DNA of 64,000 bases, from NCBI RefSeq assembly GCF_964204865.1, contig NC_135260.1, positions 3,844,001 through 3,908,000 of the forward strand, read 5' to 3'. The position numbers were made by a program, and so were the translations under genes. Of this stretch, positions 52-47,506 are shown one piece after another; the stretch's first letter is position 1, and every line of letters starts with the position of its first letter. Under the pieces are notes generated by a model. It did not search any database. It saw only the letters and a list, made by a program, of their open reading frames with translations, and had not been told where the DNA came from. The stretch comes from Styela clava (Eukaryota; Chordata; Ascidiacea; Stolidobranchia; Styelidae).

Positions 52-2006
52 TCAAAGACTCCATTTATCGAGGTCACAAGAGAACGTGAACTGGGTGCGA
101 CGTGAAGTTCCAATAATGCTAGGGATTGGTAACTTTCTTGTAATGTCTTTCTTCGACCAAAGTGCTTCATCTTCGACATCCAGAATAAAAGTAGTTCGGT
201 CATTTACGCTTAAAACCCGGCGGAGAAAAACTCCTTCGAAAGCATCAACTCTTGCGACGTAGTGAACAGTTCGAGATTTTCCACTAATCTTGACTATGAC
301 AAAATCGCCCTCGATAATATTTTGATCTTCCTCCTCTAAGTCATCAGTATCGTCGCACAATACATTCTCGTTAGATTCACTTTCACTCGAAGAAGTGCTA
401 CATCCGGATGGTGCTACCCTCACTCTAACTGTTTTCTTGTTTGCAAAGAGCATTTTTTTAGCCCGACCGAAGTTCCTTGATCTATTTTTTCTATCCTAGC
501 CACTGATTTCGCTGCTATTTCCTCTCTAACTGGCGTGTCTGTCAAAATTTTCGTGCTACCTTTTTTCCTATTGGAAGCTTTCACCTTCTTTGGCCCTGCT
601 TTCGGTAAAGGTAGTATATAACTTGGAGACACATAAGGAGTTTCCGCGTTGGTAGTCTGCACTGCTCTAGTCCAACCAGTATTGCTCTCAACGCCAGTTG
701 CTGATTGAATTGTGTTATCTTTTTGGTTCGTGGGAGTATCGGGATTTCTCTGTAAACCTGACACGCTTTCAACATTGTCTACTGCCGAGAAAACTGGATT
801 TTCGCGATCTGTAACTGAAGATGGCGCATAGTCTTCTGAGAATACGTCGCTGTTGAAAGGCATAATACCAGTGCTGTGGAAGCCAGCTAGGATATTACGC
901 GGTACAAATGCGCAGATGTGAGCTTCGTTCACCAAATGAGCTATATCGTATATAGACACAGTCTTACCCGGATTGGACCTCATCCAATTATCCATCGCGC
1001 GCGCGTAGGCTTTTTTGTATGTCCATAAACAGTCTTGTCTAAAGGCTGGAGTTTGTGGGACGTGTGTGGAGGGATGGTCAACACCACAACTCCGTTCGCC
1101 TTTGCCTTGTCAACAGCTGTCAGTGAAACGTGGGCCTCGTGATTGTCTAAGATGAGCAATACCTTTCTGTCGGGTGTACAGCGTGTATGCTTAATGAAGT
1201 GATCGAGATAGTTGACAAACGTTTCCTCGTTAATCCAACCCGCACCGTCAGATCCCAGTGGCGCACCTCGTATGAAATAATTACGATAATTGACACGGGG
1301 AAATACCATGTAGGGCGGAATAAATCCACCAGCAGCGTTGATCGCATTGACTACGGTTACCAGCTCACCTCTTTCACCTGATGTGACAGAACCAATCTGC
1401 TTAACCCCTTTTTCCGTAACAATGCTCTCAGGCTTTTGCACCGTATGGCACCCTGTTTCGTCGATGTTATATACGCCTTGTGCCTCGAATTTGTGTTGGT
1501 CCATTACTTTGGCAAGGTTTTTGTGGAACTGTCCCACTGTATGGCGATTAAACGCCGTTGCTCTGGCTAATGAAGTAGCTTCTGGACTTCGAAAGGTTAT
1601 TGCGTGCTTTCAATCCAAGCCAAAACCCTTGACCAGCTTTTTTGTTGATTTTCCAAATTTCTGGCACATCGACACTGTTTCTTTCTGCAAACTCATACGC
1701 CAAACATCGGCATTTATCTTTGGATAGGCCATGGTAGTTTGCTGCAAGTGTTTTGATGTGACTAGCTAGTTCAGCTTCCATTTCAGGTCTGAATATCATA
1801 TTCTTGAGCTTGCAATTCTTGTATCCGCTTGTACCAAGCGGGTCATGTTTTTGTTTATCCATGTATCGCTTAAGCGTCATTCGGTCCACATCAAATGTTC
1901 TCGCTGCCGATCTAATACTGCATCCCTCTTTTACTGCTTCTGCCACCCTTTCGACAATTGACGGATCACTTCCACGGGTTGATTTTCTTTTGTATGTTTG
2001 CGGCAT
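52..2006 (-). pseudogene. pogo/Tigger-type DDE transposase, frameshifted
   Basis: A decayed transposase read right to left in four pieces. The N-terminal piece (2006-1548) starts at MPQTYKRKSTRG and holds an HTH of the Psq/CENP-B kind followed by the family motif GLSKDKCRCLAYEFAERN. The catalytic piece (1620-980) carries the three acidic-residue motifs of the pogo/Tc1 DDE_1 fold: YNIDETG, LLILDNHEAHVS and PPHTSHKLQPLD. The C-terminal pieces (1030-420 and 453-52) hold DNWMRSNPGKTVSIYDIA and then an acidic, serine-rich tail. Reading frame changes near 1590-1620, 1010-1030 and 440-480 (an A-run) break the ORF, although the protein can be followed through all of them. In this family the protein cuts and pastes its own element. 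Terminal inverted repeats could not be resolved; the left end may lie outside the window. Lost function is inferred from the frameshifts; sequencing error is the alternative. Confidence 0.85.
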
Positions 2007-2413
2007 CGTCTGATAAAGAAAAAATAGGATGAAAAATATATCCAATGCAGGAGCGTTGAGCCACGGCGAAACCCTCCTGGTGACCGCTGGATCAACCCTC
2101 CCATGATCGGCCATCTTCCTATTTGAGCTCCGCTACTGCCGAATGACTACTCGACGTGCGCTACAATAGTCTCCATTAGAGCATCACAACATGGACTACA
2201 CAATGACTTAATGTGACTAAACCACGACCTGTAATATTATTAATAGTAAACATATTACCTGAGACCATGAAATTCACTTTTTGCTGCGATTCCAGCTTTT
2301 TCATTACCTGTTTTCCACCAGAGCTACAGAACGTCTGCTTCTCACAGCCAAATATAAAGTAATGACACAACCTACCAACAGAGGGCGCGCGAGCATTCTA
2401 TTACTAATGCAAG

Positions 2414-3790
2414 TTGCTAATTTTGGGGGTGGAACAAGTCTCCTCGTGGCTCAAGTCACCCGCATCTCCCCTACCCCATAACAGATTTGATTCAGAAAAA
2501 GTGGAAAAGGTAATAGAACATATTTGTATATATAAAACAGTTCAAAGTCACTATGTCCGAAAGGAGTCTAAATATCAATATTTGCCTCCAACATTAGATG
2601 TGGCTACTATTCACCGAATGTACATACGATTCTGTGCAGAAAATAACATTGAGAATCCTTTGAAATACGGAACTTACTTATACATTTTTAATGAAAATTT
2701 TAATATAAAATTTCATCAACCCAAAAAGGATCGATGTGACGTATGTGATGCATGGAACAATACAAAAGAGTCATTGAGAACTACAGAAATATTAAAATCA
2801 AAGGCAGAGCATGATCATGAAAAGAACTTGAGCAGGGTGTTCAAAGCACAAATAAAATTAATAGCACAAGACAATAGGCATATTCAAGCATCAGCATTTG
2901 ACTTTCAAAAAACCTTCCTGGCACCTGCAGGAGAGAGTTTCTCATTTTATTATAGCATGGGACTGCGAAACTACAAATTCACAGTTTTGGCGGCTTTTAA
3001 AAAAGTTCATTGTTACTTGTGGAATGAGGAAGAAGCAAAAAAGGGCTCAAATGAGGTGGCGTCTGCACTGTTGCTCTACTGGAAATTTTTACAAAAAAGG
3101 GGCGTGAAGAGTGTGTACCTTTTTTGTGACAGATGCGCAGGACAAAATTGCAACCGCATGGTATACAATATGCTATCCCTTGCCCTTAATTGGTTTGGAT
3201 TTTCAGATATAAAGTTAAGCTTTTTTGTTACAGGGCATAGCCAAAACGAGAATGACTGTGCACATTCTCTTATTGAAAAAGATTCAAAACGGCTGCACAC
3301 CTTTACCACTGATCAGTGGGAATCTGACAACATACGAGCATTTACTAAAGGGAATAAACATAGAAACATAACTATGGCTAGAATGTCTCATAGTGAAATC
3401 CTGGATTTCAAATTTCAAAACTCACCATGTTTCAAGACGTTTACAAATCAAACCTAAAAGTGAATGGCTCAAAGATCAAATGGTTGAAGATCATGCAGGC
3501 CAAGTATTCTGGTGGAAAACCTGATAAGTTTTTCTTCAAGTACTTATATGCAGAAGAAGAATATCAGGAAGTTTCATTCATAAAAAAGTCGAAGAATTTC
3601 AGGAACCCTGGACATGTTACCCAGGATGAATGAAAAGAGGAGAAGCTACAAAAAAAATGGGAATTACAATGGAAAAATATGATGCCTTAATGAAGCTGTG
3701 TAAAAAAAATCTCATTTCACCGCAATATCATACGTATCATATGACAGTCTCACCATTCGAAATGATGAAACAGATGAATCAGATAGTGAT
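2414..3790 (+). pseudogene. Transposase-like protein of the DUF7869 kind, decayed 3' end
   Basis: A 347-codon open frame to 3457, followed by further homologous-looking frames at 3427-3633 and 3630-3760. Visible marks are a CDVCDAW cysteine motif after FHQPKKDR (about residue 105), a beta-rich core (YKFTVLAAFKKVHCYLWNEE), then CDRCAGQNCNR and TGHSQNENDCAHSLIE. The order of an Asp-containing strand, the GQN.NR motif and the GHS..E.D..H..IE motif matches a widespread uncharacterised metazoan family that I recall as DUF7869, thought to have an RNase-H-like, transposase-derived fold. The name and fold are from memory. The shift near 3430-3457 and the stop before 3630 suggest a pseudogene. The N terminus expected upstream of RFDSEKVEKV is not evident, so 2414 may not be the true start. 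It lies back to back with the pogo remnant, which fits a transposon-rich array edge. Confidence 0.55.
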
Positions 3791-12811: not shown

Positions 12812-14776
12812 ATGGCTGATTTTGAAAAATCCGTAAAGATTACCCACTCATTGAATGTACTTACATCATTTAATGAACTAAAACAATCCAACTGCATTTG
12901 TAACTTCACAATCAAAGTTGGTGACAAATCTTTCAGAGTCCATCGAGACCTGCTTGGCGCAGTATCAAAGTACTTCAAAGGCATGTTTTCGAGTAACATG
13001 GTTGAGGCTCGGAATGGTTTTGTCATTATGAAAGACATCTGTGCTGATGCTGTAGGGCAGTGTGTAGATTTCATGTATACTGGTGAAGCAAATCCATCCA
13101 TGGAATCTGTTGAAAATACTTTGTATGCTTCCAACTTAATGCAGCTTGAAATATTATCAGGTATATGCTTCAATTTCATGAAAAACAATTTGTCAGTGCA
13201 GCATTGCTTTCTCGTGGTCAGGTTGGCAAGACTTTATAATTGCACAGAGCTACAAACCATTTCTGAGCGATTCATTGTGGATAATTTTGAGTCTCTGATT
13301 TTGGGTGAAAATTTTCTACATCTGAGCAAAGAAGAACTCGTATTTTATCTGCAAAAGTTGGATAAAAAACATGGAGTAGTTTGGCATGCTGTGAGAAGTT
13401 GGATTTCAAACAAAGATGAAACAATTGGATCAGAATTAATGGCGACTTTGCATTTTGAAGAGTTTCCTTATAAATTTTTGCTCACTGATCTTCTAAATGA
13501 TTTTTTGGTAGAAAGTTCTCCAGATGCAAAAAGTTTTGTCATCAAGAATTTGCTTTCGAATATTGATGGGTTGAAAGAGAATTTGTCTCTCGACACTTTA
13601 TTTCTTTTGAGGAAGATTAATCGGATCGATAACAAAGTTTGCTCAGAGAATGTGAGAAATATAATCAATGAATTTATGGCTCAGAATTTTGAACAGATTG
13701 TACCGCTGGATGAATTTGTCGAGTTGGAAAAAGATGAAATTTATATCTTGTTCAAATCTCCGGAAACAAAATATTCTTCAGAGAAAATTAAATGGGAAGC
13801 TGCACTGAAATGGGCCAAACAAAGTCGTCGTCATCGGAAAGTTTTTCCAGACTTGTTCGAGTTGATAAAACTTGAGGATTTTCCTGGTGATTTTATTCGA
13901 CAAACAGTCAGAAATGAACCTTTGGTTAAGGATTCGCACAAGTGTAAAGATTTATTGCTTGATGTCTTTGTCAGAGCCCCTGTGACTAAACTGGTGCCAC
14001 ACATTGCTGTCTCAACAGAGACTGACATAAAAACTCTGAATCTCCAAACAAATCAATGGTCTAGTTTGCATTCAGATTATAATGTTGGAATTCATCTTGT
14101 CAATGTTAAGGGACAATTGTATGCTTCAGATGGGAATGAATTGTCTTTGCTACAAGACGGTCGGTGGACTAAGAAGGCTAAGATTGGGAGTAAGAGTGAT
14201 GGATTGGATAAGATTGTTTATCTCAAGGGTGGGATTTATATTATCAACTTAGATCAGCATACAATGCGATATAACATTGCCGAAGACAGATGGGATAAGA
14301 ATTTACCTTCATGTTGTCTTGATTATCGTTTTTGTGCTGCTGCCTCTGATGAGTTTATATATGCGATGGGAGGTTGGTCAACACAAAAAGAAGCAAAAGT
14401 ATACGATCCTGGAACAAAGAAATGGTCTTCCCTGCCACAGATGATTTATGGAACAGCAGATGGAGCAGCAGTCGTTTTTCAAAGTATGGTTTATGTACTG
14501 GGAGGTTGGAATGGAGAGCGCTCCCACAACCTTGTTCAATGTTATAACCCTGTTGTTCGATCATGGGCACAAATTGCAAGTATGAAGATGAATAGAAGTT
14601 GGTTGAGTGCATGTGTTGCTGATAATAAAATGTATGCTATCGGTGGTGCTAGATGTGAAAACCAGACTGAGGATTCTATTGAAACATTCAATGAAGAAAC
14701 TGGTGAATGGGAAATAGTCTGTGAAATGAATTGGCCCGGGGTGGACTGGGTTCATTGCTGTAGCTTTGCTCGATAG
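12812..14776 (+). CDS. KLHL-A: BTB-BACK-BACK-Kelch protein, intact
   Basis: One exon, 654 codons, start MADFEKSVKITHS, stop TAG. The BTB/POZ domain spans about residues 12-126, with the HRDLL helix at 44-48 and a Phi-X-E element MVE at 63-65, the signature used by KLHL proteins to bind Cullin-3. BACK spans about 131-248 (FESLILGENFLHLSKEELVF at 159-178). A second BACK-like repeat follows at about 283-388 (FEQIVPLDEFVELEKDEI at 293-310, ending LVKDSHKCKDLLLD). Kelch blades run from about 396 to the end; the clearest double-glycine strands are YAMGGW (517-522), YVLGGW (561-566) and YAIGGA (608-613), and the first blades are degenerate. By family knowledge it should act as dimeric substrate receptor of a cytosolic CUL3 ubiquitin ligase; the substrate is unknown. 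It is somewhat longer than usual KLHLs because of the extra BACK-like segment. It keeps the most complete upstream cassette of the array. Confidence 0.93.
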   Translation: MADFEKSVKITHSLNVLTSFNELKQSNCICNFTIKVGDKSFRVHRDLLGAVSKYFKGMFSSNMVEARNGFVIMKDICADAVGQCVDFMYTGEANPSMESVENTLYASNLMQLEILSGICFNFMKNNLSVQHCFLVVRLARLYNCTELQTISERFIVDNFESLILGENFLHLSKEELVFYLQKLDKKHGVVWHAVRSWISNKDETIGSELMATLHFEEFPYKFLLTDLLNDFLVESSPDAKSFVIKNLLSNIDGLKENLSLDTLFLLRKINRIDNKVCSENVRNIINEFMAQNFEQIVPLDEFVELEKDEIYILFKSPETKYSSEKIKWEAALKWAKQSRRHRKVFPDLFELIKLEDFPGDFIRQTVRNEPLVKDSHKCKDLLLDVFVRAPVTKLVPHIAVSTETDIKTLNLQTNQWSSLHSDYNVGIHLVNVKGQLYASDGNELSLLQDGRWTKKAKIGSKSDGLDKIVYLKGGIYIINLDQHTMRYNIAEDRWDKNLPSCCLDYRFCAAASDEFIYAMGGWSTQKEAKVYDPGTKKWSSLPQMIYGTADGAAVVFQSMVYVLGGWNGERSHNLVQCYNPVVRSWAQIASMKMNRSWLSACVADNKMYAIGGARCENQTEDSIETFNEETGEWEIVCEMNWPGVDWVHCCSFAR

Positions 14777-20552: not shown

Positions 20553-23500
20553 ATGGCTGATTTTAAAAAATCTGCAAAGATCAAGACTTTATGATCGTAC
20601 AGAGCTACAAATCATTGCTGAGCGATTTATTGTGGATAATTTTGAGTCTTTGATTTTGGGTGAAGATTTTCTACATTTCAGTGAAGAAAATCTTGTATTT
20701 TATCTGCAAAAGTTGAATAAAAAGCATGAAGTAGTTTGGCATGCTGTGAGAAGATGGATTCTAAACAAAGGTGGAAAGATTGGATCAGAACTGATGGGGA
20801 CTTTGCATTTTGGAGAGTTTTCTTATAACTTTCTGCTCACTGTTCTGCTAAATGATTCTTTGGTAAAAACCTCTCCAGAAGCAAAAAGTTTTGTCATCAA
20901 AAAATTGCTTTCGAATATCGATGGGTTGAGAGAAAATTTGTCTCTCGACACTTTATTCATTCTGAGGAAGATTAATCGTCTTGAAAACAAAGTTGACTCA
21001 GATAATGTCAGAAAAATATTCAATGAATTTATGGCTCAGAGTTTTGAACAGATTGTACCAATGGATGAATTTATTGAATTAGAGCAAGATGAAATTTTCT
21101 TCTTGTTCAAATCTCCGGTAACAAAATATTCTTCAGAGAAAATTAAATGGGAAGCTGCACTGAAATGGGCCAAACGAAGTCGTCGCCATAAGAAATTTTT
21201 TCCAGACTTATTTGAGTTGATAAAACTTCAGGATTTTTCTGATGATTTTATTCAACAAACAGTCAGAAATGAACCTTTAGTTAAAGAGTCGCATGAATGT
21301 AAAGATTTATTGCTTGATATTCATTTTCCCAGAGCTCAGATGGGAATACTTGTCCCACATATTGCTGTCTCGACAAGAACAGGTATAAAGACTCTGAATC
21401 TCCAAACAAATCAATGGTCTAGTTTGCAGTCAGATGATGATGTTGGCATTCATCTTGTCAATGCTGAGGGACGATTGTATGCTTCAGATGGGAATGAATT
21501 ATCTTTGCTGCAGGATGGGCAATGGATTAGGAAGACCAAGGTTAAAAGAAAGAAAGTAAACGATAATACAGTTTATCTCAAGGGTGGGATTTATATTATC
21601 GGCTTTGATCAGCATACAGTGCGTTATGACATTGCCAAAGACAAATGGAATAGGAATTTGCCCCCATGTCTCCTTGATTATGGATTTTGTGCTGCTGCCT
21701 CTGGTGGGTTCTATATGTTCTAATATTTAAGCCCAGAGTATTCTACTACCTACCAGTATATTTATTGTTATTATGTGTAACATATTGTTGTGTTTGGAGT
21801 TAGAAATAAATTAGTAGAGAATAGATGACCACCACTGCCAGCGCGCAGCCGGGATTTTCAAAATCGGAAATTCTCATTGCCGCCTGCAACACCCACCGCG
21901 ATTCCGCGCTTGTTAAAAGAGCCGTCTTGTCAGCGTATAATGATCATTCTGTTACGTAAAATATTCAATCCATGACAACTACGAGATTCTAAAATATCTT
22001 TGTATATTAATTTAATGTGTCCAACATAACTCGCGGTTGCTTCTTCTTACGTCAAAAAAAAACATTACTATTCGGTCCACGGAAATCTGTGACCTAAAAT
22101 TACGAGATAAACTGCTTGATGTATTTAATTTTAATATGTATTTTTGCAATCTTGCCAACTCGTTATTGCCGTTAGAAAAATCTCAAACAATTATATAAAA
22201 TCCTGTTAAGTGTAGAGAATAATTCATTTCATACAATGAATATACATATAAAGTTTAGCAGTAAATTAAAAATACATATTCATCGCCGCGATTATGCCAC
22301 CTGTTAGAAGAGTCGACTTTTACAACAAATAATATAACAACAAATATATATTTTTCTGTTGTGCAAAGTGATGAATTCGTGACCAACACGGGCATATTTA
22401 AAATGTCTTGCTCTTATTAATTTAATTGTCTTCAATTTAAACTGCGGTTGCGTCGACAAAATAAAATCCTCACCACTCTTATATACCATTGCAATCAGCG
22501 GCCATAAAAATAAAAACGTGAGGTAAACTGTCCGATTAAATATTGTTTTTATCCGTATTTTGCGAATTCGGCAAATATTTAGATGTACTTGTTAACAGTG
22601 ACTCCGCTCGATCGAAATGCTCAGAGTAAAATATCTCAGAGTAAAATTTATTTCATCACAATAAAATTGATTGAATATACCTCAGAATAACTATAATATA
22701 ACATTCTCACAACCAGGGAAAAAGTCGTGTTTTAAACCTTGTATCGTGTTAACCCGAAAATATTTGACGGCAATTTAAAGTAAAGGATAATCAGGCAAAT
22801 CCCGCCCTCAGTGACGATACGTTCCTAAACGCTGACCAAACATAATGTGCACACGAAATTTTGTGATTTTCACTGCCTAGAAAAGCGTTTTTTAAATTTT
22901 CGCGGGACTCAATAAAACTTATGTTGTTTACGGTTTTGTTTTCAGTATTTTAAATTGCCGCTTTTCAATCAAAAAGTTGCGTTGTCTTTAGAAACTCGCC
23001 GCCTATGAACGTATTTACCAGATTCACAATTCCGTGCGCATACAAAAATAAAATAAATGTTATCGTTATCGTGGAACAAATTTGTGGAAAATTTTCGTTT
23101 TAGAGAAAATAACACAATCGTAATAGCGTTTACGGGCCTAAATAACACGTTACGCTGATGAGTGATAAAAACAATCGCGCGCAAGTTTCTATCGAGAATG
23201 TTTTCATTCAACGGAAACGTCTTGAAAGCGGCGTCGAAAATGTGTGACGTCACACAAATATCCGATATTCTTATGAACGTGAATTCCGATATTCGAATAA
23301 TGAGATATTCGAATACATTCGAATACTTCATTCGAATTGGCCATCCCTGGTTATAACCCTGTTGTTCGCTCATGGACAGAAATTGCAAAAATGGAGATGA
23401 ATAGATTCAGATTCAGTGCATGTGTTGTTGATAATAAAATGTATGTAGTAGGTGGTGCTAAAGATAAAGGTCTGAATAAGGAATCTATTGAAACATTCAA

Positions 23501-23585
23501 TGAATTATCTGGTGAATGGGAAATAGTCTGTGAAATGGATCGACCTAAGCTGGAATGGGTTTATTGCTGTAGCTATGCTCAATAG
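20553..23585 (+). pseudogene. KLHL-A2: KLHL pseudogene without BTB
   Basis: The start ATGGCTGATTTT is kept, but after ten codons the sequence jumps to the region equivalent to KLHL-A residue ~139 and changes frame, so the whole BTB domain (about 128 codons) is deleted. BACK, the second BACK-like repeat and the first Kelch blades then read openly from about 20632 to 21717. There an insertion of about 1.63 kb interrupts the gene, and the sequence equivalent to KLHL-A residues ~520-577, two blades, is missing. The last blades resume at 23351 (YNPVVRSWTEIAKMEMNR) and end at the family stop. Without BTB the product could not dimerise or bind Cullin-3, so it is a pseudogene. A transcript making a BACK-Kelch fragment cannot be excluded. 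Confidence 0.88.
21719..23350. mobile_element. Insertion inside KLHL-A2
   Basis: About 1.63 kb of foreign sequence between the Kelch-coding halves. The right edge, TTCGAATTGGCCATCCCTG, resembles a hAT terminus, and palindromic ATTCGAAT words crowd at 23290-23340. No matching left terminus or target duplication was found, and Kelch sequence is missing at the junction, so insertion with deletion is likely. No transposase was recognised. Confidence 0.5.
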
Positions 23586-26683: not shown

Positions 26684-28642
26684 CTATTGAGCATAGCTAC
26701 AGCAATAAAGCCATTGTAGCCCATCCATTTCACAGACTATTTCCCATTCACCAGTTTTCTCATTGAATTTTTCAATAGAATCCTTATTCAGGCCTTTACT
26801 TCCAGCACCACCGACTGCATACATTTTATTATCAATAACACATGCACTGAACCAACCTCTTTTCATCTTCATTTTTGCAATTTCTGTCCATGAGTGAACA
26901 ACAGGGTTATAACATTGAACATTCCTGTTAAAGCGATTTTTATCATAACCTCCCAGTATATAAACCATACTTTGAGAAACGACTGCTGCACTACCTGCTG
27001 TTTTATAAATCATCTGTGGCAGGAAAGACCACTTATTTGTTCCAGGATCGTATACTTTTGCTTCTCTTCCTGTTGACCATCCTCCCATTGCATATATGAA
27101 CCCATAAGAGGCAGCAGCACAAAATCCATGATCAAGACCACATGAAGGCAAATTTTTATCCCATCTGTCTCTGGCGATATCATATCGCACTGTATGCTGA
27201 TCATGGCTGATAATATAAATTCCACCCTTGAGATAAAGCATCTTATCTGACCAGTGACTCTCTTTTTCAACCTTAGCTTTCTCAATCCATCGACCATCTT
27301 GTAGCAAAGACAATTGATTACCATCTGAAGCATACAATCGTCCCTCAGCATTGACAAGATGAATGCCAACATCATAATCTGACTGCAAACTAAACCATTG
27401 ATTTGTTTGGAGATTCAGAGCCTTTATACCAGTATCTGATGAGACAGCAATACGTGGGACAAGTGTTCCAATCTGACCTTTGAAATAAGCATCAAGTAAC
27501 AAATCTTTACACTTATGCGACTCTTTAACCAACGGCTCCTTTCTGATTGTCCGCCGAATAAAATCATCAGAAAAATCCTGAAGTTTTATCAACTCGAATA
27601 AGTCTGGAAAAACTTTCTGATGACGACGACTTTGTTTGGCCCATTTCAGTGCAGCTTCCCATTTAATTTTCTCTGGAAAATATTTTGTTTCTTGAGATTT
27701 GAACAAGAAGAACATTTCATCTTTTTCCAACTCGATGAATTCATCCATTGGTACAATTTGTTCAAAATTCTGAGCCATAAATTCATTGACTATATTTCTG
27801 ACAGTCTCTGAGAAAACCTTGTTTTCGATCTGATTAATCTTCCTCAAAATGAATAAAGTGTCGAGCGACAAATTCACTTTCAACCCATCAATATTCGAAA
27901 GCAATTTTTTGATGAGAAAACTTTTTGCATCTGGAGAAATTTCGAATAAAGAATCATTTAGCAGAACAGTGAGCAAAAATTTATACGGGAACTCACCAAA
28001 ATGCAAATTCTCCATTAATTCTGATTCAATCTTTTCACCTTTGTTTGAAATCCATCTTCTCACAGCATGCCAAACTACTTCATGATTTTTATTCAACTCT
28101 TGCAGATAAAATACGATTTCTTCTTTGCTCAGATGTAAAAAATCTTCAACCAAAATTAGAGACTCAAAATTATCCACAATGAATCGTTCAGCAGTGGTTT
28201 CTAGCACCTTGCGATCATAAAGCCTTGCCAACCTGACCACTAGAAGGCAATGCTGCACTGACAGATTATTTTCCATGAAATTAAAGCATATACTTGATAA
28301 TACATCAAGCTGCATTAAGTGGGAAGCATACAAGGTATTCTCAACAGATTCCATGGATGGATTTGCTTCACCAGTATACATGAAATCTACACACTGCCCT
28401 ACAGCATCAGCACAGATGTCTTTCATAACGACAAAACCATTCTGAGCCTCAACCATGTTGCTTGAAAACATGCCTTTGAAGTACTTTGATACTGCGGCAA
28501 GCAGGTCTCGATGGACTTTGAAAGATTTGTCACCAACTTTGATTGTGAAGTTACAAATGCAATCAGATTGTTTTAGTTCATTGAATGATGAAAGTACATT
28601 CAATGAGTGGGTAATCTTTGCAGATTTTCCAAAATCAGCCAT
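26684..28642 (-). CDS. KLHL-B: BTB-BACK-BACK-Kelch protein, intact
   Basis: One exon, 652 codons, beginning MADFGKSAKITHS at the first ATG after an in-frame stop and ending CCSYAQ. The domain order matches KLHL-A: BTB with the MVE Phi-X-E element, BACK (FESLILVEDFLHLSKEEI), a second BACK-like repeat (FEQIVPMDEFIELEKDEM to LVKESHKCKDLLLD), then Kelch. The BTB is almost identical to its paralogues. Kelch loops differ: GGYDKNRFNRNVQCYNP where A has GGWNGERSHNLVQCYNP, and MIYKTAGSAA where A has MIYGTADGAA. The likely role is a CUL3 ligase substrate receptor with target specificity different from A; the target is unknown. The gene is followed downstream by KLHL-C, 6.4 kb upstream of it in transcription sense, on the same strand. 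Confidence 0.93.
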   Translation of the reverse strand: MADFGKSAKITHSLNVLSSFNELKQSDCICNFTIKVGDKSFKVHRDLLAAVSKYFKGMFSSNMVEAQNGFVVMKDICADAVGQCVDFMYTGEANPSMESVENTLYASHLMQLDVLSSICFNFMENNLSVQHCLLVVRLARLYDRKVLETTAERFIVDNFESLILVEDFLHLSKEEIVFYLQELNKNHEVVWHAVRRWISNKGEKIESELMENLHFGEFPYKFLLTVLLNDSLFEISPDAKSFLIKKLLSNIDGLKVNLSLDTLFILRKINQIENKVFSETVRNIVNEFMAQNFEQIVPMDEFIELEKDEMFFLFKSQETKYFPEKIKWEAALKWAKQSRRHQKVFPDLFELIKLQDFSDDFIRRTIRKEPLVKESHKCKDLLLDAYFKGQIGTLVPRIAVSSDTGIKALNLQTNQWFSLQSDYDVGIHLVNAEGRLYASDGNQLSLLQDGRWIEKAKVEKESHWSDKMLYLKGGIYIISHDQHTVRYDIARDRWDKNLPSCGLDHGFCAAASYGFIYAMGGWSTGREAKVYDPGTNKWSFLPQMIYKTAGSAAVVSQSMVYILGGYDKNRFNRNVQCYNPVVHSWTEIAKMKMKRGWFSACVIDNKMYAVGGAGSKGLNKDSIEKFNEKTGEWEIVCEMDGLQWLYCCSYAQ

Positions 28643-28900: not shown

Positions 28901-29112
28901 AACCTAATTTTTCGAGGAATCCTGACTTAGGAACAAGATTTGTCAGATACATGACTCCGACTCGATTATGACAGTAACGATCGAATATTCCTTAAAGCGT
29001 TCCAAATTTAAGAGACTTCGAAAAGCCCAAACTGGAAATTTAGCTAAAACCTAATATTTTATCTCAATATTGCTTTACTTGAGTTTGCTATGGATGTTCC
29101 ATCTTACTCTTA

Positions 29113-29430
29113 CCATATTCCCCCGAAAATAAGACCTAGCCGAAATATAATACCTAGCCTGATTTTTGAAAAGGTTTTTAAATCGAGCCTTCCCTAAAGT
29201 AATACCTAGTCGATAGCGCGAAATTTTGATTTGAAAATTTATGAATCTAGTGACTTGCAAGACATTCCAGATGATGATGATATGGTCATTTTTAAATAAT
29301 CTATATTCATCAATGAATATCGGTTTTTATATTTTGTATATTTGAAAATCTAGAATTTCTCAGCTTTGTCATTTTGATAGATGAAAATAAAAGACATCTC
29401 TGAAAATAAGCCCTAGTGTTATTTTTCGAA
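29113..29430 (+). repeat. Dispersed CCCCGAAAATAAGACC repeat, copy 1
   Basis: Starts CCCCGAAAATAAGACCTAGC and ends around GAAAATAAGCCCTAGTGTTA (29401). Sister copies lie at 48168-48475, 37530-37880 (diverged), 53563-53875 and, as a fragment, at the right window end (both in opposite orientation). It is a MITE-like dispersed family; terminal repeats are suggested by the GAAAATAAG words at both ends. Confidence 0.55.
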
Positions 29431-30049
29431 AGGAAATTTACATAACAGCCTGTTCTGTTTTTGTTTAAATTCAAGCATTTCTGAATGAAAACAAATTCGT
29501 GGCAAACATTTAAGTAGCAGCTTGATATTGGGCCATATGCTCCGTTAAATTCAGCATTGGCCCACCAGAGTGAAAATAAATTTTTTGTATTTGGCAATAA
29601 TGAAGGACTTGCAAGGAATATATGAGTCAGTGGCATTATATAAAATATAGAGTTTACAAAGATGTGAATGGAACATTGCTGTCAAAGGCTATAAAACAGT
29701 TTTCTCTCATCTAATTCGATTAGCTGGCAGCTCTCCCTTGTTCACTGTCAGGATACCTTACAGGCAAAAAAAAAAACTAAGCTAAAATTTTTATCCAATA
29801 GCTTCAATTATGTGGAATTCATGACCTAAAAGCTAAATAATTAACATATATTGCCTGAAGTTTTGAGTCAATCGGAACTCACTAATGCTCGATTCTACAT
29901 TATAATGATTTATAGTCCCAGGCACTGTAGTCCAACCTCGCTCAGAAATTATTCTCTCTTAAATTTCTGAATTAGTGCGCGTGGACTTGCTTTGAGCACA
30001 TTTTCATCAAAAAATCTGTAACGTTTATTATCTCTACACCACACTATAG

Positions 30050-32240
30050 TCCTAACTCGAGCAATAAAATAAGTTTAAGCTGAATCGAGATATAACAGTT
30101 TGTTTTTCGTCAACTCCAGCCATCAAATTACCTATTGGCGTCATATTACCAATTTATTTAAAAATTGTGTTTACCAAACATGGCCAGTGTCTCAGCAGTG
30201 TGTTTTACCAACGGACCATGCTCGATCTTACAAATGTAAATTATTACACTATTAACTTATCGAATAACGTCACTTAATCTATTTCCTTATGAGCTATGAC
30301 TAGTTAACCAGCATGACTCGATGCAATATGCAATGCACAAATATATGTACACAAAGGTTGATATGTCATTACAATATGAGAAGAATTACAGCCAAATTAT
30401 ATAAGGATTGCACTGTATGTCATTTAACTTGGGATAAATATATGAAGTCGATGGCTAGAAGGTGATCACTAGCAAAAGCATTTTATAATTCGATTCGAAC
30501 CGTTTTCCTATCATCAATTCTGACTAGACTCTGAATAATCTGTCACTGGTGCATGAGGAACCCATATTCTCTTTTTTTAACATAAGATTACCCCCCTTAA
30601 TACTCTTTTAGGACTGGCATAGATATCATTTCTGAGTCATATCTTTATCATACAATGCATTTTCGCACTGCTCATTACGACCAAAGAAGGCACTGTAACA
30701 GAAATGTAAGGTGCTAATATTTATGGTAGGCCCCGAATATTTCCAATTCGGCAATAGTCTATCTTTAACACTTTCATCGTAAGTACAGGGTGCCAAGGAA
30801 TTGGATTATTTGGAATATATTCTAGAACTGGAGTGGACAAAGGTTTTTTCAAGGGACGCACCAAAAAACGTCCGCACTAAGAAACATTGACTGTGTACCA
30901 CTGTGCAGAGCTTTGTTGAAAGTGAATTCCAGGGATTACGGTTTATATACTTCATAAGCTCACTAGAATACAGTATTGCGATTTGTTCTAAGAAACATTA
31001 GTAAATTGGATTTTCTGTAAATATACTCTTACAGTTTTAAGGGCAAGGGCATGGTTTTTCATCTGAATAAGCTGTTTTATCGACTTCCCTGAACCTCGGG
31101 ATATATATTCTATCCCATATGAACAGAAAGAAAAAAAGGTTATGGTGGGGCATAAACAGCATATGTAATTCGACACTAACAATAATGCCATCCTATACAT
31201 TTCATTGATTCCCCAGGTTTGGTCAAACATAAATTGTACGAAGTATGATGGACCTTAACTATGTATTACTCTTAGGCCATTATTCATTTATTTTATTCAA
31301 TGCAATAAAATAATCCAATCTAAGCTGCATAGAAATATAACTGTTTGTTATTTCGTCAACTCCGGTCATTAAATTACCTATTGGCGTCATATTACCAATT
31401 TATTTAGAAATTGTGTTTCCAAACATGGTCAGTGTTTCAGCAGTGTATTCAACCAACGCACCATGCTCGATCTTACAAATGTAAATCATTATACTATTAA
31501 ATTATCGAACAACGTCAGCAAATCTATTTCCTTATGAGCTATGACTAGTTTATTAGCACGGCTCTATGCAATATGCAAAGGTTGATTTGTCATTAAAATA
31601 TGAGCAGAATTTCAGCCACATTTTATAAGGATTGGTCTGTATGGCATTTGACTTGGGATAATTACATAAAGTCAATGGCTAGGTGACCAATAGCAAAAAC
31701 ATCTTATAATTCAATTTGAGGCGTTTTCCCACTTTCCGCGTTTTCCCACTTTCAATTCTGATTGGGCTCTGAATAATCTGCCACTGATGCAAGAAGATCA
31801 ACTATTCTCTCTTTTTTATCAGATTACCTCCTTTGATACTCTTTTAGCGCGTGCACAGATATCATTTCTGAGTCATATATTTATCATACGATGCATTTTC
31901 ACACTGTTCACTACGAGCAAGACACTGTCATAGAAATTTAAGAAGTTAATATTTATGGTAGGTCCAGAATTTTCTCATTCGACATTTGCCTTCCCAATCT
32001 AACACTTTCATCATAAGTACAGGGTGCCTCCCAGAGCTTGGGTTATTGAGAACATATTCTAGAACCGTGGTGGGCAGGCAACGTTTTTCTAAGGGCCGCT
32101 CTAAAAAAAAATTTGACTGTGTCACCACAGTGCAGAGCTTTGTTGAGAGTGAATATTGGGGAATAGGATTTATATACTTCAAATAAGATCTTTAGAATAC
32201 AGTAATGCGGGTTGTTCTGTTTAAAAACTATTGTTTGATA
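30050..32240. repeat. Tandem duplication, ~1.25-kb period
   Basis: 30050-31300 and 31310-32240 are diverged direct copies. TTACCTATTGGCGTCATATT occurs at 30129 and 31375, ACCATGCTCGATCTTACAAA at 30217 and 31461, and TTCCTTATGAGCTATGACTA at 30283 and 31530. The same pair is present in block 2 (49190-51380), so the tandem duplication predates the block duplication. Confidence 0.8.
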
Positions 32241-33236
32241 GAGTAGATGGGTGAAACAAAACACAAACTTGGCAGCAAATGCGTTTTTTTTTGTGGCGTG
32301 AAGATTGGAGGTGTATACTAAGGATCAATGTTTTTTTAATACAATAATATTTCACTTTCCACAATGATATCATGTGAACAAGGTTTCTCACATATTTTCA
32401 ATATTATTGACAGTGATGAACTTTTCAAAGTCCCTTGCCAACTGCTATATCCTTCACATTACTCTTAAGTCTCAACCATCGGTGTCACTTGCAATCTTTC
32501 TTTAGACTACCATCATCTATGTACTTGTATACTGCACCCAAGCAATTTGTATGCAATTCTAGAGAATGTATTTGGTGGTAATAAAAGTATATTATCGCAC
32601 ATCATGGGAGCAGTGATTATAAATGACCTTTGACCCAGACAAAAGTTATTATTAAGAATCATTAAAACAAATATTTGATTAAGAATCATTCAAACAATAT
32701 TTTTTAATGAATATAACATACAGATCCTTGATATGTGATAGTTCCTATATTGATCGAATACCAACATTTTATTAATTCACATTGATCTAATATAAGAGCC
32801 ATTTAATCAAGCCATACATATCAGTGTACAATCGATATTTACATGTATTGAATATGATCTGCATTTAGTTTAGATGGTTCCAGTGAGTTTCATAACCAAC
32901 CCAAGTCACAAAACACCAGTACGTGATGGAAATGGAGTTCATTGCAGAGTGGTTGCCTGGGGTATTCAGAAAGCCATCGTTGGTAGGGAGCACTGGAATG
33001 GACTTGTGTAGAGGGTACAGGCTGTGATCGTGAATTCATTGGTGAGTGGTATTGGGTGAATCGGAAGCATCTGTCCTGGTTGGTGATAATACCAGCATTG
33101 AAGTGTACGATGGAACTCTTGTCACTAGTTGAGAATGTACTCGTTCTGGTGGAACAACTACAGCTAACTACAACAAAACGCGAAATAATCAATGTTATGT
33201 GAGAGCATGTTCACGATAGTTGTCTGGAATCTACTT

Positions 33237-35037
33237 GCCTTGGTGCATCGGGCATTCCTGGGTAATTCAGCATTGACAGGTACTATCATATATGGACCAT
33301 TTGTAAGTCAAAATATGCAATCTGCAAACTTCAATATGTCAAGTTTATACAAAAGTTATTTGTGTACTGTCTTTGGCTTCACATGGGTTAATGACTGTGA
33401 GCATATACCTAACTGATGAGCGGGTTGAAATCTGAATTATAGATTGCTAAGGTGTCTGTTCATATTCAATCCTCACATATACAAAATCGGGTTCCGAGCC
33501 ATTATTTTGACCAAACTTGAGTTTGGGTCACTGGATTGTCAACTCTTCTTCAATACACAAGACTTCAACTAGTCCTGTCTTTGAAACAGATTACTGGCAA
33601 CCTACCCACAGTTCAATCTATATCACTAAAGTTAATAATTGCTTACATATTAGATAGCTATCTACATTTGAATTAGTAGCATATAAAGTATAGAGCACAC
33701 TAAGTAAATAAATTTGCTGCTCAATGAATAAAAAAGTCCTCTCTGCAGTGGAGTATTGAAGTTGAAAAATTTAAAAATATATTTCCACTGAAATTGTCAA
33801 CATTATCAATCTTATGATATGAGAAATCAAATATCTATTACATCAAACACATATGGAGTGCAATATTACATAAAAAACAAGTGCATATGAACAACATGAA
33901 GCAAAGTAATGCAATAAATGCCGATATAAGTGTGAGATAAAATGAACACCAAGCAGTGAAACGTAACCATTCAAAAATTAAAACTCGATGAGGAGGAAAT
34001 AAAAAACAGAGGGAGAGTTCAGGATGAATTTGTTACAGTTACAATGCCAATGACTTAATGAGATGATATTTATCTAGAACTGCATTTCTTCGGTTAATTA
34101 CAGGGGTCGGCAACCTTTTGTCGCTCGCGGGCCAAAATAATGGTTGCAAGTAATTGGCGGGCCGCACATATTTTTAGAAAGTTGAAAACCGAACGAATGA
34201 TACTTTTTATAATAAAAATGAAGCAGTGAGACATCTCTAGAATAGAATATAGATTTATTTCCTCATTGCATTGCATTTTTGGCGCCTTTTGAACCCTTTG
34301 CACTTAGCATCAACTATTCTACATTTTGTTGCCATTTGTCTAATTATATTTAAATTATAGCCTCATTAAACGAGTAATTGTGAATTTTATACTTGTTAGA
34401 TTATAATATAATTACTATTATTTTATATTATATTACTATAATTCAGTGAAGCGTCGCGGGCCGGATTATGTTACTGGGGGTGTGGGGGGGTTCTCAAATT
34501 TTTTTTCGCCAAGTTAGATCGAAACAGCTAGCGGGTCCGATCAAACGCTGGAATACGCGTGTTTTTAGTAGCCTTGAGGGTCTAAAAAGCATTTTAAGCT
34601 ACGGTGCTATCTACGATACAGAAAAATTATTTTTAATTTTTTTACATTTAAAAAGGGGGGGGAGGTCGACCCGCAAAACCACCCCCTGGCTACGTCACTG
34701 TGCCGACCCCTGGATTAATACATTCTATTACAGTGCTTACTGAATCGTGGAAAAATGAGAAAAAGACTAGAGCACATCTATTTACTAAGGAAAGGTAACG
34801 AATAAAGTTTGGCTAATTGATACCAAATGAGCCAAATCACAACATGTCTGATATTGAAGTTTCTTGGTAATTATAAACAAAAGTCAACTAAATCACATTA
34901 TTATGTACAATTTTGTATCTGAAATTGATATTGAATTGAAGGAAAATATTGAATCGTCAGATTCATTGCCATATAGTCAGTATATATAAGAAACAAGTGT
35001 ATTTCCTCGTTATCCACTTTTAACATTGATTACTTAT
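33237..35037 (-). repeat. KLHL-C 3' flank
   Basis: Matches 54661-56149 (3' of E) and the reverse complement of the right palindrome arm, except for the longer hAT copy at 34101. No gene. It contains the family block ATAATTACCAAGAAACTTCA (minus strand, near 34870). Confidence 0.7.
34101..34712. mobile_element. hAT element, long copy, with nested insertion
   Basis: The ends CAGGGGTCGGCAACC and GTGCCGACCCCTG give an inverted-repeat hAT signature. Inside, the right part (from about 34487) carries another repeat ending CCACCCCCTGGCTACGTCACTG. The orthologous copies at 55541 and 62030 lack about 330 internal bases. The target duplication is too degraded to be sure. Confidence 0.7.
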
Positions 35038-37001
35038 TTATCGAGCAAAGCTACAGCAACAGACCCATTGAACATGAAGCGGATCCATTTCACAGACTAT
35101 TTCCCATTTACCAGTTTTCTCATTGAATGTTTCAATAGAATTCGTCAGGTCTCGATAACTATCCCCACCGACTGCATACATTTTATTATCAACAACACAT
35201 GCACTGAAATATTGTCTACACATCGCCATTACTGCAATTTCTGTCCATGAGCGAACAGTAGGGTTATAACATTGAACATAACAGTGAGGATACCCAATAT
35301 CATCTCCTCCCAATACATAAACCATACTTTGAAACACGACTGCTGCACTATCATATGCTTGATGAGACATCTGTGGCAGTGGAGACCATTTCTTAATTCC
35401 ACGATCGTATACTTTTGCTTTCCTCCATGCTGCCCAACCTCCCATCGCATATATAAACTCATCAGAGGCAGCAGCACAAAAACCATCACCAAGATCACAT
35501 GAAGGCAAATTCTTATCCCATCTGTCTTTGGCAATGTCATATCGCATTGTATTCTGGTCACGGTTGATAATATAAATCCCACCCTTAAGATAAACCATCT
35601 CATACCTCTCATCACTCTTCCTTTCAACCTTGGCCTTCTTAGTCCATCGACCATCTTGTAGCAATGACAATTTATTTCCATCTGAAGCATACAATCGTCC
35701 CTCAACATTGACAAGATGAATGCCAACATCATAATCTGACTGCAAACTAGACCATTGATTTGTTTGGAGATTCAGAGCCTTTATACCAGTCTTTGTTGTG
35801 ACAGCAATATGTGGAACAAGTTTTCCCCCCTGAGCTTTGGCATGGAGAATATCAAGCAATAAATCTTTACACTTATGCGACTCTTGAACTAAAGGTTCAT
35901 TTCTGACTGTTTGTCGAATAAACTCATAAGAAAAATCCTGAAGTTTTATCAACCCGAACAAGTCTGAAAAAAATTTCTGATGACGGCGACTTTGTTTGGC
36001 CCATTTCAGTGCAGCTTCCCATTTAATTTTCTCTGAAGAATATTTTGTTTCCTGAGATTTGAACAAGAAAAAAATTTCAATTTTTTCCAACTCGATAAAT
36101 TCATCCATCGGTACAATCTGTTCAAAATTCTGAGCCATGAACTCATTGATTATATTTCTGACATTCTCTGAGCAAACTTTGTTTTTGATCCGATTAATCT
36201 TCCTCAAAACGAATAAAGTGTTGAGGGATAAATTCACTTTCAACCCATCGATATTTGAAAGCAATTTTTTGATGACAAAACTTTTTGCATCTGGAGAACT
36301 TTGTACCAAAGAATCATTTAACAGATCAGTGAGCAAAAATTTATGAGGAAACTCTCCAAAATGACAATTCTCCATTAATTCTGATCCAATCTTTTCACCT
36401 TTGTTTGAAATCCATCTTCTCACAGCATGCCAAACTACTTCATGCTTTTTATCCAACTTTTGCAGATAAAATACAAGTTCTTCTTTGCTGAGATGTAGAA
36501 AATCTTCACCCAAAATCAGAGACTCAAAATTATTCACGATGAATCGCTCAGCAATGGTTTCCAGCTCTGTACGATTATAAAGCCTTGCCAACTTGACCAC
36601 TAGAAGGCAATGCTGCACTGACAGATTATTTTCCATGAAATTAAAGCATATACTTGATAATACATCAAGCTGCATTAACTGGGAAACATACAAAGTATTT
36701 TCAACAGATTCCATGGATGGATTTGCTTCACCAGTATACATGAAATCTACACACTGCCCTACAGCATCAGCACAGATGTCTTCATAACGACAAAACCATT
36801 CCGAGCCTCAACCATGTTGCTTGAAAACATGCCTTTGAAGTACTTTGATACTGCGCCAAGCAGGTCTCGATGGACTTTGAAAGATTTGTCACCGACTTTG
36901 ATTGTGAAGTTACAAATGCAGTCAGATTGTTTTAGTTCATTGAATGATGTAAGTACATTCAATGAGTGGGTAATCTTAGCAGATTTTTTAAAATCAGCCA
37001 T
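35038..37001 (-). pseudogene. KLHL-C: BTB-BACK-BACK-Kelch gene with one-base frameshift
   Basis: All domains are present: MADFKKSAKITHS start, BTB with MVE, BACK (FESLILGEDFLHLSKEEL), a second BACK-like repeat (FEQIVPMDEFIELEKIEI to LVQESHKCKDLLLD), Kelch, ending CCSFAR. One T is missing from a TTT run at 36780/36781 (GTCTTCATAACG where all paralogues have GTCTTTCATAACG), which shifts the frame in the BTB after about 75 codons. Downstream, 567 codons remain open, so the lesion is very young, polymorphic or an assembly error. If real, the product lacks a functional BTB. The 3' half is nearly identical to KLHL-E. The proximal 5' flank is altered compared with the others and is cut by a hAT element 0.4 kb upstream. 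Confidence 0.85.
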
Positions 37002-37396
37002 TTCTGAATTGCTTCAAGATTTTTACTGATAATAGAGGCTTTACTGTAGAATGATAATTGAACTAGATAGTTTAATTACGGTATGTTAAGAGTAAATATA
37101 ATAATAATCAAATATATATAAATAAATACAAAAAAGCAGCTTAAGGACCTTATACGAGTCTGGTGTAGTTTCGTACCACAAGTCTGTCTGGTTGGCGTAG
37201 CATAACGATTTTTGTACATCTCAATCCTAACCCTCCCCCCCCCTGACTACGCCATCCAAAAATTACGTCACTACGACATCACAATCACGTCATAGAGCTT
37301 GCCAAATATACCTATTATCGCGTGAAATAGCATCTGCGCCGACGATAAGAAACTCACTTTCGGCAGCGATCTCTCTAGTCGTCGAGTAATCTAGAC

Positions 37397-42076: not shown

Positions 42077-42237
42077 CTCAGTACTACAGCTACTGTAGGT
42101 CGGTACTGGTAAATTGCCATACAGGTACCGTAACGCAGTGAAATTGTCTTATTCCTTCCGCGGTATTACTAATGCTGCAATGCAAGTTTTATAGCCTATC
42201 GTATGCGGAACGGAATATCAGACCTACAGGTTCGGTA

Positions 42238-42882
42238 CCGGTACTGGTAGCTCAGTACGTAAGTACGATACTGGTACTGGTGCCGGTGTCTTACCACAAT
42301 GAAATTACCGTAACCTATTCTTTCACGGTCCTACCAGTGCAGTAATGCAAGCGTTGTAGCCTACTATATTTGTTTATTTTAATGAGAGTCTACTGGAAAC
42401 AACATAAAATTTGAAAGGGAAGAATTGTTCTGTGATCAATTATCTGTCCTAAAGTGTAAACAACATAAAATTTGCAAGGGAACAACTGTTCTGTGATCAA
42501 TTACCGTATATGGCCTACAGTGTACAGGTAAGATGCTGGCTGACTGCTAACCGGTACTGGTAGCTCAGTACGTAAGTACGATACTGGTACTGGTGCCGGT
42601 ACCGGTGTCTTACCACAATGAAATTACCGTAACTTATTCTTTCACGGTCCTACCAGTGCAGTGATGCAAGCGTTGTAGCACTTGTAGCCTACTATATTTG
42701 TTTATTTTGACGAGAGTCTACTGGAAACAACATAAAATTTGAAAGGGAAGAATTGTTCTGTGATCAATTATCTGTCCTAAAGTGTAAACAACATAAAATT
42801 TGCAAGGGAACAACTGTTCTGTGATAAATTACCGTATATGGCCTACAGTGTACAGGTAAGATGCTGCCTGACTGCTAACTCA
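42238..42882 (+). repeat. Two-copy tandem repeat, 313-bp period
   Basis: CCGGTACTGGTAGCTCAGTA starts at 42238 and again at 42551. Each unit carries two related inner segments (AACAACATAAAATTTG and similar). It is set in a GGTAC/CCGGTAC-rich stretch. Confidence 0.85.
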
Positions 42883-42895
42883 GTACCGGTACCGC

Positions 42896-45550: not shown

Positions 45551-47506
45551 TTATTGAGTAGAGCAACAGCAATAAACCCAGTCCACCTCAGGCCGATCCA
45601 TTTCACAGACTATTTTCCATTCACCAGTTTCTTCATTGAATGTTTCAATAGAATCCTCAGTCAGGCCTTGAGCACCACCGACTGCATACATTTTATTATC
45701 AGCAACACATGCACTGAACAAACCTCTACTCATCTTCATTTTTGCAATTTCTGTCCAAGAGCGAACAACAGGGTTATAACATTGAACAAGGTTACCACTC
45801 CGTCCTGCAATACCTCCCAGTACATAAACCATACTTTGAAATACGACTGCTGCACTACAAAATGTTTTATAAATCATCTCTGGCAGTGAAGACCATTTGT
45901 TCGTTCCAGGATCGTATACTTTTGCTTCTCTCTCTGTTGACCATCCTCCCATGACATATATGAACTCATCAGAGGCAGCAGCACAAAAATCAACACCATG
46001 ACCACATGAAGGCAAATTCTTATCCCATCTGTTTTTGGCAATGTCATATCGCACTGCATGCTCATCACAGCTGATAATATAAATCCCACCCTTGAGATAA
46101 ACCATCTTATCGTTTTCATCACACAGTCTTTCAATCTTGGTCTTCTTAATCCATCGACCATCTTGTAGCAAAGACAATTCATTCCCATCTGAAGCATATA
46201 ATCGTCCCTCACCATTGACAAGGTGAAAGCCAACATCATAATCTGAATGCAAACTAGACCATTGATTTGTTTGGAGATTCAGAGACTTTATAACAGTATT
46301 TGTTGAGACAGCAATATGTGGGACAAGTTTTCTAACCTGACCTCTAAAATAAGCATCAAGTAACAAATCTTTACACTTATGCGACTCTTTAACCAAAGGT
46401 TCATTCCTGACTGTTTGTTTAATAAAATCATCAGAAAATTCCTCAAGTTTCATCAACTCGAACAAGTCTGGAAAAACTTTCTGATGACGACGACTTTGTT
46501 TGGCCCATTTCAGTGCAGCTTCCCATTTAATTTTCTCTGAAGAATATTTTGTTTCCGGAGATTTGAACAAGAAAAAAACTTCATCTTTTTCCAACTCAAT
46601 AAATTCATCCATCTGTACAATCTGTTCAAAATTCTGAGCCATAAATTCATTGATTATATTTTTGACATTTTCTGAGCAAACTTTACTTTTGATTTGATTA
46701 ATCTTCCTCAAAACGAATAAAGTGTCGAGAGACAAATTCTCTTTCAACCCATCGATATTCGAAAGCAATATTTTGACGACAAAACTTTTCGCATCTGAAG
46801 AACTTTCGACCAAAGAATCATTTAGCAGATCTGTGAGTAAAAATTTATACGAAAACTCTCCAAAATGCAAAGTCTCCATTAATTCTGATCCGATCTTTTC
46901 ACCTTTGTTTGAAATCCATCTTCTCACAGCATGCCAAACTACTTCATGCTTTTTATCCAACTTTTGCAGATAAAATACAAGTTCTTCTTTGCTCAGATGT
47001 AGAAAATCTTCACCCAAAATCAGAGACTCAAAATTATCCACAATGAATCGCTCAGCAATGGTTTGTAACTTTGTACGATCATAAAGTCTTGCCAAACTGA
47101 CCACTAAAAGGCAATGCTGCGCTGACAGATTATTTTCCATGAAATTAAAGCATATACTTGATAATACGTCAAGCTGCATTAGGTGGGAAGCATACAAAGT
47201 ATTCCCAAGAGATTCCATGGATGGATTTGCTTCACCAGTATACATGAAATCTACACACTGCCCTACAGCATCAGCACATATGTCTTTCATAATGACAAAA
47301 CCATTACGAGCCTCAACCATGTTACTTGAAAACATGCCTTTGAAGTACCTCGATACTGCGGCAAGCAGGTCTCGATGGACTTTGAAAGATTTGTCACCAA
47401 CTTTGATTGTGAAGTTACAAATGCATTCAGATTGTTTTAGTTCATTGAATGACGTAAGTACATTCAATGAGTGGGTAATCTTTGCAGATTTTGCAAAATC
47501 AGCCAT
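45551..47506 (-). CDS. KLHL-D: BTB-BACK-BACK-Kelch protein, intact
   Basis: One exon, 651 codons from MADFAKSAKITHS to CCCSTQ. The frame stays open upstream to 47638, but all paralogues start at MADF/MDEF, so 47506 is chosen. BTB carries MVE; BACK has FESLILGEDFLHLSKEEL; the second BACK-like repeat has FEQIVQMDEFIELEKDEV through LVKESHKCKDLLLD; Kelch blades follow (YVMGGW, YVLGGI, YAVGGA). The loop after the second double glycine is two residues shorter than in A (GGIAGRSGNLVQCYNP), and MIYKTFCSAA and MKMSRGLFSA also distinguish it. It corresponds to KLHL-B in the duplicated block by position, yet its Kelch coding differs from B at roughly one base in eight in the part I compared. Predicted CUL3 adaptor; target unknown. 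Confidence 0.93.
   Translation of the reverse strand: MADFAKSAKITHSLNVLTSFNELKQSECICNFTIKVGDKSFKVHRDLLAAVSRYFKGMFSSNMVEARNGFVIMKDICADAVGQCVDFMYTGEANPSMESLGNTLYASHLMQLDVLSSICFNFMENNLSAQHCLLVVSLARLYDRTKLQTIAERFIVDNFESLILGEDFLHLSKEELVFYLQKLDKKHEVVWHAVRRWISNKGEKIGSELMETLHFGEFSYKFLLTDLLNDSLVESSSDAKSFVVKILLSNIDGLKENLSLDTLFVLRKINQIKSKVCSENVKNIINEFMAQNFEQIVQMDEFIELEKDEVFFLFKSPETKYSSEKIKWEAALKWAKQSRRHQKVFPDLFELMKLEEFSDDFIKQTVRNEPLVKESHKCKDLLLDAYFRGQVRKLVPHIAVSTNTVIKSLNLQTNQWSSLHSDYDVGFHLVNGEGRLYASDGNELSLLQDGRWIKKTKIERLCDENDKMVYLKGGIYIISCDEHAVRYDIAKNRWDKNLPSCGHGVDFCAAASDEFIYVMGGWSTEREAKVYDPGTNKWSSLPEMIYKTFCSAAVVFQSMVYVLGGIAGRSGNLVQCYNPVVRSWTEIAKMKMSRGLFSACVADNKMYAVGGAQGLTEDSIETFNEETGEWKIVCEMDRPEVDWVYCCCSTQ

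Follow-up and report, generated by a model that had tools for sequence, protein, structure and literature searches.

The window, a stretch of 64,000 nucleotides of Styela clava DNA (contig NC_135260.1, positions 3,844,001 to 3,908,000), contains clustered genes, each with a single exon and about 650 codons. Seven copies with the order BTB-BACK-BACK-Kelch were identified in these 64 kb, four of them intact (A, C, E and F) and three damaged (B, D and a mirror copy of F), and they would form a tandem array of substrate-adaptor genes for Cullin-3 (Cul3). The best reading of how the copies differ, to which a probability of about 0.6 is given, is diversifying selection on target choice. The copies and the putative Cul3-docking site are as follows.

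12812-14776, plus strand: copy A, intact, 654 aa, BTB-BACK-BACK-Kelch (open frame, Pfam)
12998-13006, plus strand: copy A codons 63-65, M-V-E, corresponding in position to the phi-x-E motif for Cul3 binding and unchanged across A, C, D, E and F
20553-23585, plus strand: copy B, damaged
26684-28642, minus strand: copy C, intact, 652 aa (open frame, Pfam)
35038-37001, minus strand: copy D, frameshifted by a single base within BTB, the remainder open as a 567-aa frame
45551-47506, minus strand: copy E, intact, 651 aa counted from the first shared ATG
56150-58114, minus strand: copy F, intact, 654 aa (open frame, Pfam)
59732-61696, plus strand: near-perfect mirror copy of F with two in-frame stop codons, in a large palindrome

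In an earlier reading of the same DNA, called here the original prediction, copies C, E and F had been named B, D and E, and its frame-shifted C is most likely copy D (35038-37001, minus strand). Copy B lacks about 0.39 kb of BTB/BACK, and about 0.18 kb of its Kelch part is replaced by about 1.6 kb of other sequence. The mirror copy is not independent of F. Both are carried by a near-perfect palindrome (53847-58495 and 59351-64000, 99.85% alike with 7 differences in 4650 bases, centre of 855 bases), with 3 of the differences lying inside the gene and 2 of those being the stops. The palindrome extends to the end of the window, and is either a real inverted duplication or an assembly artefact.

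An N-terminal BTB domain was matched by Pfam in A, C, E and F (E 1.2e-21 to 5.6e-20), and the BTB part of copy D is split over two frames. Two BACK stretches apiece were matched in A, C, D, E and F. These tandem BACK domains lie between BTB and Kelch (13190-13987 in copy A and the equivalent part elsewhere) and are related to each other (hhalign probability 95.6, 24% identity), the second being extra to the usual BTB-BACK-Kelch plan; in the literature the wording "two BACK domains" turned up a single time, there meaning the two chains of a dimer. A six-bladed Kelch propeller is present at the C-terminus, and neither a MATH nor an F-box domain was found among the Pfam matches. The phi-x-E site was placed by eye against M83-S84-E85 of KLHL3, and by analogy with the KLHL family the proteins are predicted to bind Cul3.

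Variation on one face of the Kelch propeller

Six copies, B included, were aligned as proteins and their variable columns counted, with columns of fewer than four residues dropped, and the loops were delimited on Kelch landmarks after the alignment had been seen. With these borders 71 of the 87 columns in the b-c and d-a loops were variable (33/41 and 38/46, respectively), against 19 of 49 in the loops of the opposite face (a-b 7/21, c-d 12/28; Fisher p 6e-7) and 34 of 126 in the strands. When the loop labels were slid around the Kelch domain, none of 261 shifts attained the observed total. Borders taken from an AlphaFold model gave 60/81 variable columns in top-face and 14/37 in opposite-face loops (p 2e-4), with 44/135 in the strands. 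All six blades contribute to the loop variation, blades 1-3 too, and little variation was seen in b-c loop 2 and d-a loop 1-2. The variable loops, located in copy A, are listed below.

14012-14029, plus strand: b-c loop of blade 1
14183-14215, plus strand: d-a loop of blades 2/3
14246-14263, plus strand: b-c loop of blade 3
14309-14332, plus strand: d-a loop of blades 3/4
14375-14392, plus strand: b-c loop of blade 4, where 6/6 codons differ between D and F
14444-14464, plus strand: d-a loop of blades 4/5 (IYGTADG)
14507-14530, plus strand: b-c loop of blade 5 (WNGERSHN), where the sites picked out by the models are most densely clustered
14585-14605, plus strand: d-a loop of blades 5/6 (KMNRSWL)
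14648-14674, plus strand: b-c loop of blade 6, which varies in length as well as in sequence
14729-14746, plus strand: d-a loop joining blade 6 with the closing strand

The original prediction had placed the differences in Kelch loops at 14340-14776, about codons 510-654 of copy A and thus blades 4-6. The concentration was confirmed and reaches beyond that interval, and the framework and loop strings that had been quoted were all found in copies A, C, E and F. The variable loops had also been assigned to the substrate face, which agrees with the KLHL20 complex: according to excerpts of the KLHL20 paper, its substrate surface owes its shape to the BC and DA loops, and the bound peptide contacts every one of the six DA loops and all but one of the six BC loops. 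Like the domain anatomy, this distribution of variation is a direct observation.

The BTB domain, the N-terminal 130 residues, carries scattered changes only, as had been claimed (22/130 columns variable; BACK 103/262). The ratio of replacement to silent substitution rates (dN/dS) of BTB was 0.26 [0.14-0.46] in the four intact copies, and among ten pairs it was 0.14-0.37 with a silent divergence (dS) of 0.06-0.22, so the domain is under purifying selection. Recent homogenisation as the main cause of the BTB likeness was rejected because of this dS; some exchange is possible for C-D (0.063) and C-E (0.095), where dS is low. No class of sites significantly above 1 was revealed in the 5' half of the four intact genes (twice the log-likelihood difference, 2dlnL, 0.14 with silent-rate variation and 0.13 with multi-nucleotide changes added).

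Selection tests, silent rates and exchange between copies

The mirror copy, a near-duplicate of F, and copy B, which is incomplete, were left out of the selection tests. For the Kelch part of A, C, D, E and F, 2dlnL was 36.9 (M1a vs M2a), 39.5 (M7 vs M8) and 37.2 (M8a vs M8), and the extra class held 13% of sites with dN/dS of 5.2, or about 4 to 5 across the site models. Among the sites with P >0.8, 17 of 19 lay inside b-c or d-a loops with landmark borders; with AlphaFold borders the counts were 8/10, 6/9 under the multi-nucleotide model and 17/21 with five genes. The statistic was 21.6 for five genes and 17.5 for the four intact genes when the silent rate could vary (0/74 null simulations attained 17.53 with four genes), and 12.7 and 9.0 when multi-nucleotide changes were allowed as well. 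The three topologies used gave the same picture, so tree choice was rejected as the driver of the loop signal. An artefact of gap alignment was rejected too, since the loop dN/dS was still 1.55 (shared silent rate, p 0.012) after columns within 3 of a gap had been removed; with the loops' own silent rate it was then 1.09.

All b-c and d-a loops were also pooled into a single block. Under a silent rate common to all of Kelch, loop dN/dS was 1.5-1.8, above 1 (p 0.013 to 0.0003), and that of the framework 0.33-0.43; opposite-face loops gave 0.43 and strands 0.41. The silent rate of the loops was 1.65-2.5 times that of the framework. Silent divergence was 0.29 within the hypervariable codons themselves, then 0.148 at 1-2 codons away, 0.146 at 3-5, 0.201 at 6-9 and 0.103 beyond (13 codons). 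The silent excess is limited to codons changed more than once and is not regional, because neighbouring codons are not raised, and at codons changed more than once silent steps are counted least reliably. A linked silent peak around the loops, as predicted by gene conversion with selection, was not seen.

Loop replacement divergence (dN) was also set against silent rates from outside the loops, giving 2.31-2.36 over framework dS (95% lower bound 1.53) and 1.66-1.82 over whole-gene dS (lower bound 1.21). Three-gene subsets (8 further rows) pointed in the same direction, with lower bounds of 0.80-1.22 over BACK, the region with the highest dS. That loop replacement is faster than the silent rate is supported but not proven.

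Copies D and F provide a recent comparison. Their dS is 0.025-0.029 in the 3' halves and 0.16-0.28 in the 5' halves, and 31 of 163 silent sites differ in the 5' half, but 7 of 256 in the 3' half (p 2e-8); the two copies have a recent common 3' half and separate 5' histories. They lie in a segmental duplication (28909-37009 vs 47945-58120), in which the spacers have diverged by about 0.055 near C/E and by 0.014-0.019 near D/F. C and E are only 88% alike in their coding regions, although the spacers of the duplication nearby are about 0.055 diverged. An older dispersed repeat was also observed: mutually related blocks, each about 0.9 kb long and 77-78% alike, occupy 30076-32218 and 49184-51384 and recur within and between both duplicated spacers.

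The duplicated spacers were used as a neutral yardstick for D-F, with spacer 1 and the C/E flank, which are further off, left out. The proportion of replacement differences (pN) between D and F was 0.084 in the loops (17 changes, with two silent), 0.022 in the rest of Kelch and 0.012 in BACK2. Against spacers 3-5 (0.018) 3.7 loop changes were expected (p 4e-7), and against spacer 2 (0.034) p was 8e-4. One six-codon patch (codon columns 523-528; copy A 14375-14392) differs at 10 of 18 bases despite the recent 3' halves, and could be one complex event or an import. Counted as a single event it leaves 10 loop changes, with p 0.005 against spacers 3-5 and 0.15 against spacer 2. Drift alone should not outrun the spacers.

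The copies of the array exchange parts. In a triplet test modelled on 3SEQ, with 60 ordered triplets and 2000 shuffles and no correction for multiple testing, 10 triplets had p <=0.0075 and 6 reached the floor of 0.0005, five of these six with D or F as the recipient. At codons 428, 429 and 433, E and F share changes and D differs. Tests on a single tree are approximate because of this exchange.

The window averages 35% G+C and has long stretches free of open reading frames, as gene-poor eukaryotic sequence does. A scan of it gave no tRNA or Rfam match. For relatives of the array genes, one stretch in viral contigs fit a pattern and 258 stretches were found in prokaryote genomes, with none confirmed in either. 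Other features of the window are given below.

420-2114, minus strand: a gene resembling a DDE_1 transposase, broken up over several frames and apparently the decayed remains of a mobile element
2414-3457, plus strand: 347-codon open frame with a DUF7869 match, possibly part of another mobile element
42237-42891: 328-base unit in two tandem copies

Interpretation and known systems

Under diversifying selection on target choice, the BTB half would be kept constant so that each protein still dimerises and docks on Cul3, and the b-c and d-a loops of the propeller would grip the target. Selection would favour copies with differing loops, so that from copy to copy the ligase would be directed at different proteins or variants, and duplication with partial exchange among neighbours would supply new genes and reshuffled 5' and 3' halves. 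From the KLHL family, distinct targets for the single copies may be expected. Pathogens, reproduction or another force would be candidate drivers of the loop change. A fuller version, in which a recombining repertoire of Cul3 adaptors diversifies its six-blade target face for cytosolic recognition and destruction of changing proteins of parasites or selfish elements, is tentative and on the whole unlikely.

Several results weigh against selection on the loops. When the loops were given their own silent rate, their dN/dS was 1.16-1.22 with landmark borders and 0.82-0.89 with AlphaFold borders, not different from 1 in either case, and with the latter not different from the framework (p 0.30, 0.17); the two sets of borders give different results. 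Loop dN over BACK dS was only 1.35-1.49 (lower bounds 0.95, 1.06; P(<=1) 0.05-0.01). Since 2/59 null simulations attained 9.03 with four genes and multi-nucleotide changes allowed, the strictest site test is marginal at about 0.05, and not 0.0013 as the chi-square gives. The codon models were coded in Python for this analysis and not cross-checked with published programs, and exchange between copies violates their single-tree assumption. In the D-F comparison the six-codon patch holds 8 of the 17 loop replacements; with the patch removed, the other 9 compare with an expectation of 3.4 from spacers 3-5 (p 0.009) or 6.4 from spacer 2 (p 0.19). Spacer 1 and the C/E flank diverge still faster, and since D is frameshifted, drift may account for part of its change. 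The original prediction of diversifying selection on target recognition is supported in part: the site tests it called for revealed a Kelch class above 1, mostly in loops, with none in the 5' half and BTB under purifying selection, but the class became marginal with multi-nucleotide changes and the loop block did not exceed 1 with its own silent rate.

Relaxed constraint would explain the pattern if the loops were under less constraint than anything else in a redundant propeller and drifted almost neutrally with strands and BTB held. It is favoured by the loop-block dN/dS of 0.8-1.2 with the loops' own silent rate, by the damage in 3 of 7 copies, and by the rest of Kelch in D-F, which changed at the spacer rate (pN 0.022 vs 0.018, p 0.56). 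This is a minority explanation, given that the opposite-face loops are constrained (dN/dS 0.43), that site models containing a class with dN/dS = 1 were rejected, that the D-F loops are faster than spacers 3-5, and that loop dN exceeds the dS of the Kelch framework and of the whole gene, while a neutral loop cannot pass the silent rate. Import of short tracts by gene conversion from older paralogues outside the window, with the loops themselves unselected, is the least probable account and regarded as quite improbable. Exchange is real, as the D-F halves and the triplet test indicate, the loop silent rate is 1.7-2.5 times that of the framework, and the D-F patch differs at 10/18 bases; however, pasted tracts should bring silent differences nearby, and silent divergence was at background level 1-5 codons away. 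Import also leaves unexplained why every one of the six blades is affected in the loops of one face and not in those of the other.

Specialisation, in which each copy after duplication adapted a single time to a cellular substrate of its own and was then fixed, as in the wider KLHL family, competes with the driver and not with the mechanism of diversifying selection, for the loops would be positively selected with no lasting conflict. It is a serious possibility, falling somewhat short of even odds, and different cellular substrates fit the data as well as conflict does. In excerpts of one report (PMC10146909), the DA and BC loops of KLHL proteins differ between members and are well conserved within each, and D and F, whose 3' halves are recent, have kept most loop residues in common. 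On the other side, D and F are already 17 loop replacements apart, though D may be non-functional.

If diversifying selection on the loops is true, the idea of a fast-evolving substrate domain would reach the family of adaptors whose target binding is structurally best understood. The variable loops could be placed singly on solved substrate complexes, so that predictions of what each copy binds would be testable. The array would also be a KLHL subfamily with unfixed target loops, in contrast with what PMC10146909 reports for human KLHL proteins. Among the matches listed, in a partial coverage of the literature, no report of diversifying selection on the Kelch loops of an animal BTB-Kelch array was found.

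Known KLHL adaptors of Cul3 (Keap1, KLHL3, KLHL12, KLHL20) are like the array proteins in having BTB with phi-x-E, BACK, a C-terminal six-bladed Kelch propeller, and a target face whose b-c and d-a loops vary. Unlike them, the array has two BACK domains and tandem close paralogues, and its target loops differ within a subfamily, whereas KLHL loops are described as well conserved within each protein (PMC10146909, in excerpt). In the gene conversion model of Innan and Teshima, as outlined in part of PMC3924837, exchanging duplicates stay alike except at small selected targets; unlike in such duplicates, silent divergence in the array is not raised next to the changed codons, and no linked peak was seen.

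The closest precedent is the nematode MATH-BTB and F-box families (Thomas 2006), in which, according to excerpts of PMC4334554 and PMC5392922, the substrate-binding and not the cullin-binding domain is positively selected, and which are suspected of marking and destroying foreign proteins. Both are expanded sets of ubiquitin-ligase adaptors, and the cullin-side domain of the array is likewise under purifying selection. The array differs in that its substrate domain is a Kelch propeller, in that far fewer copies were tested, and in being known from sequence alone; it is not a member of the MATH-BTB or F-box families, though it may work in a similar way.
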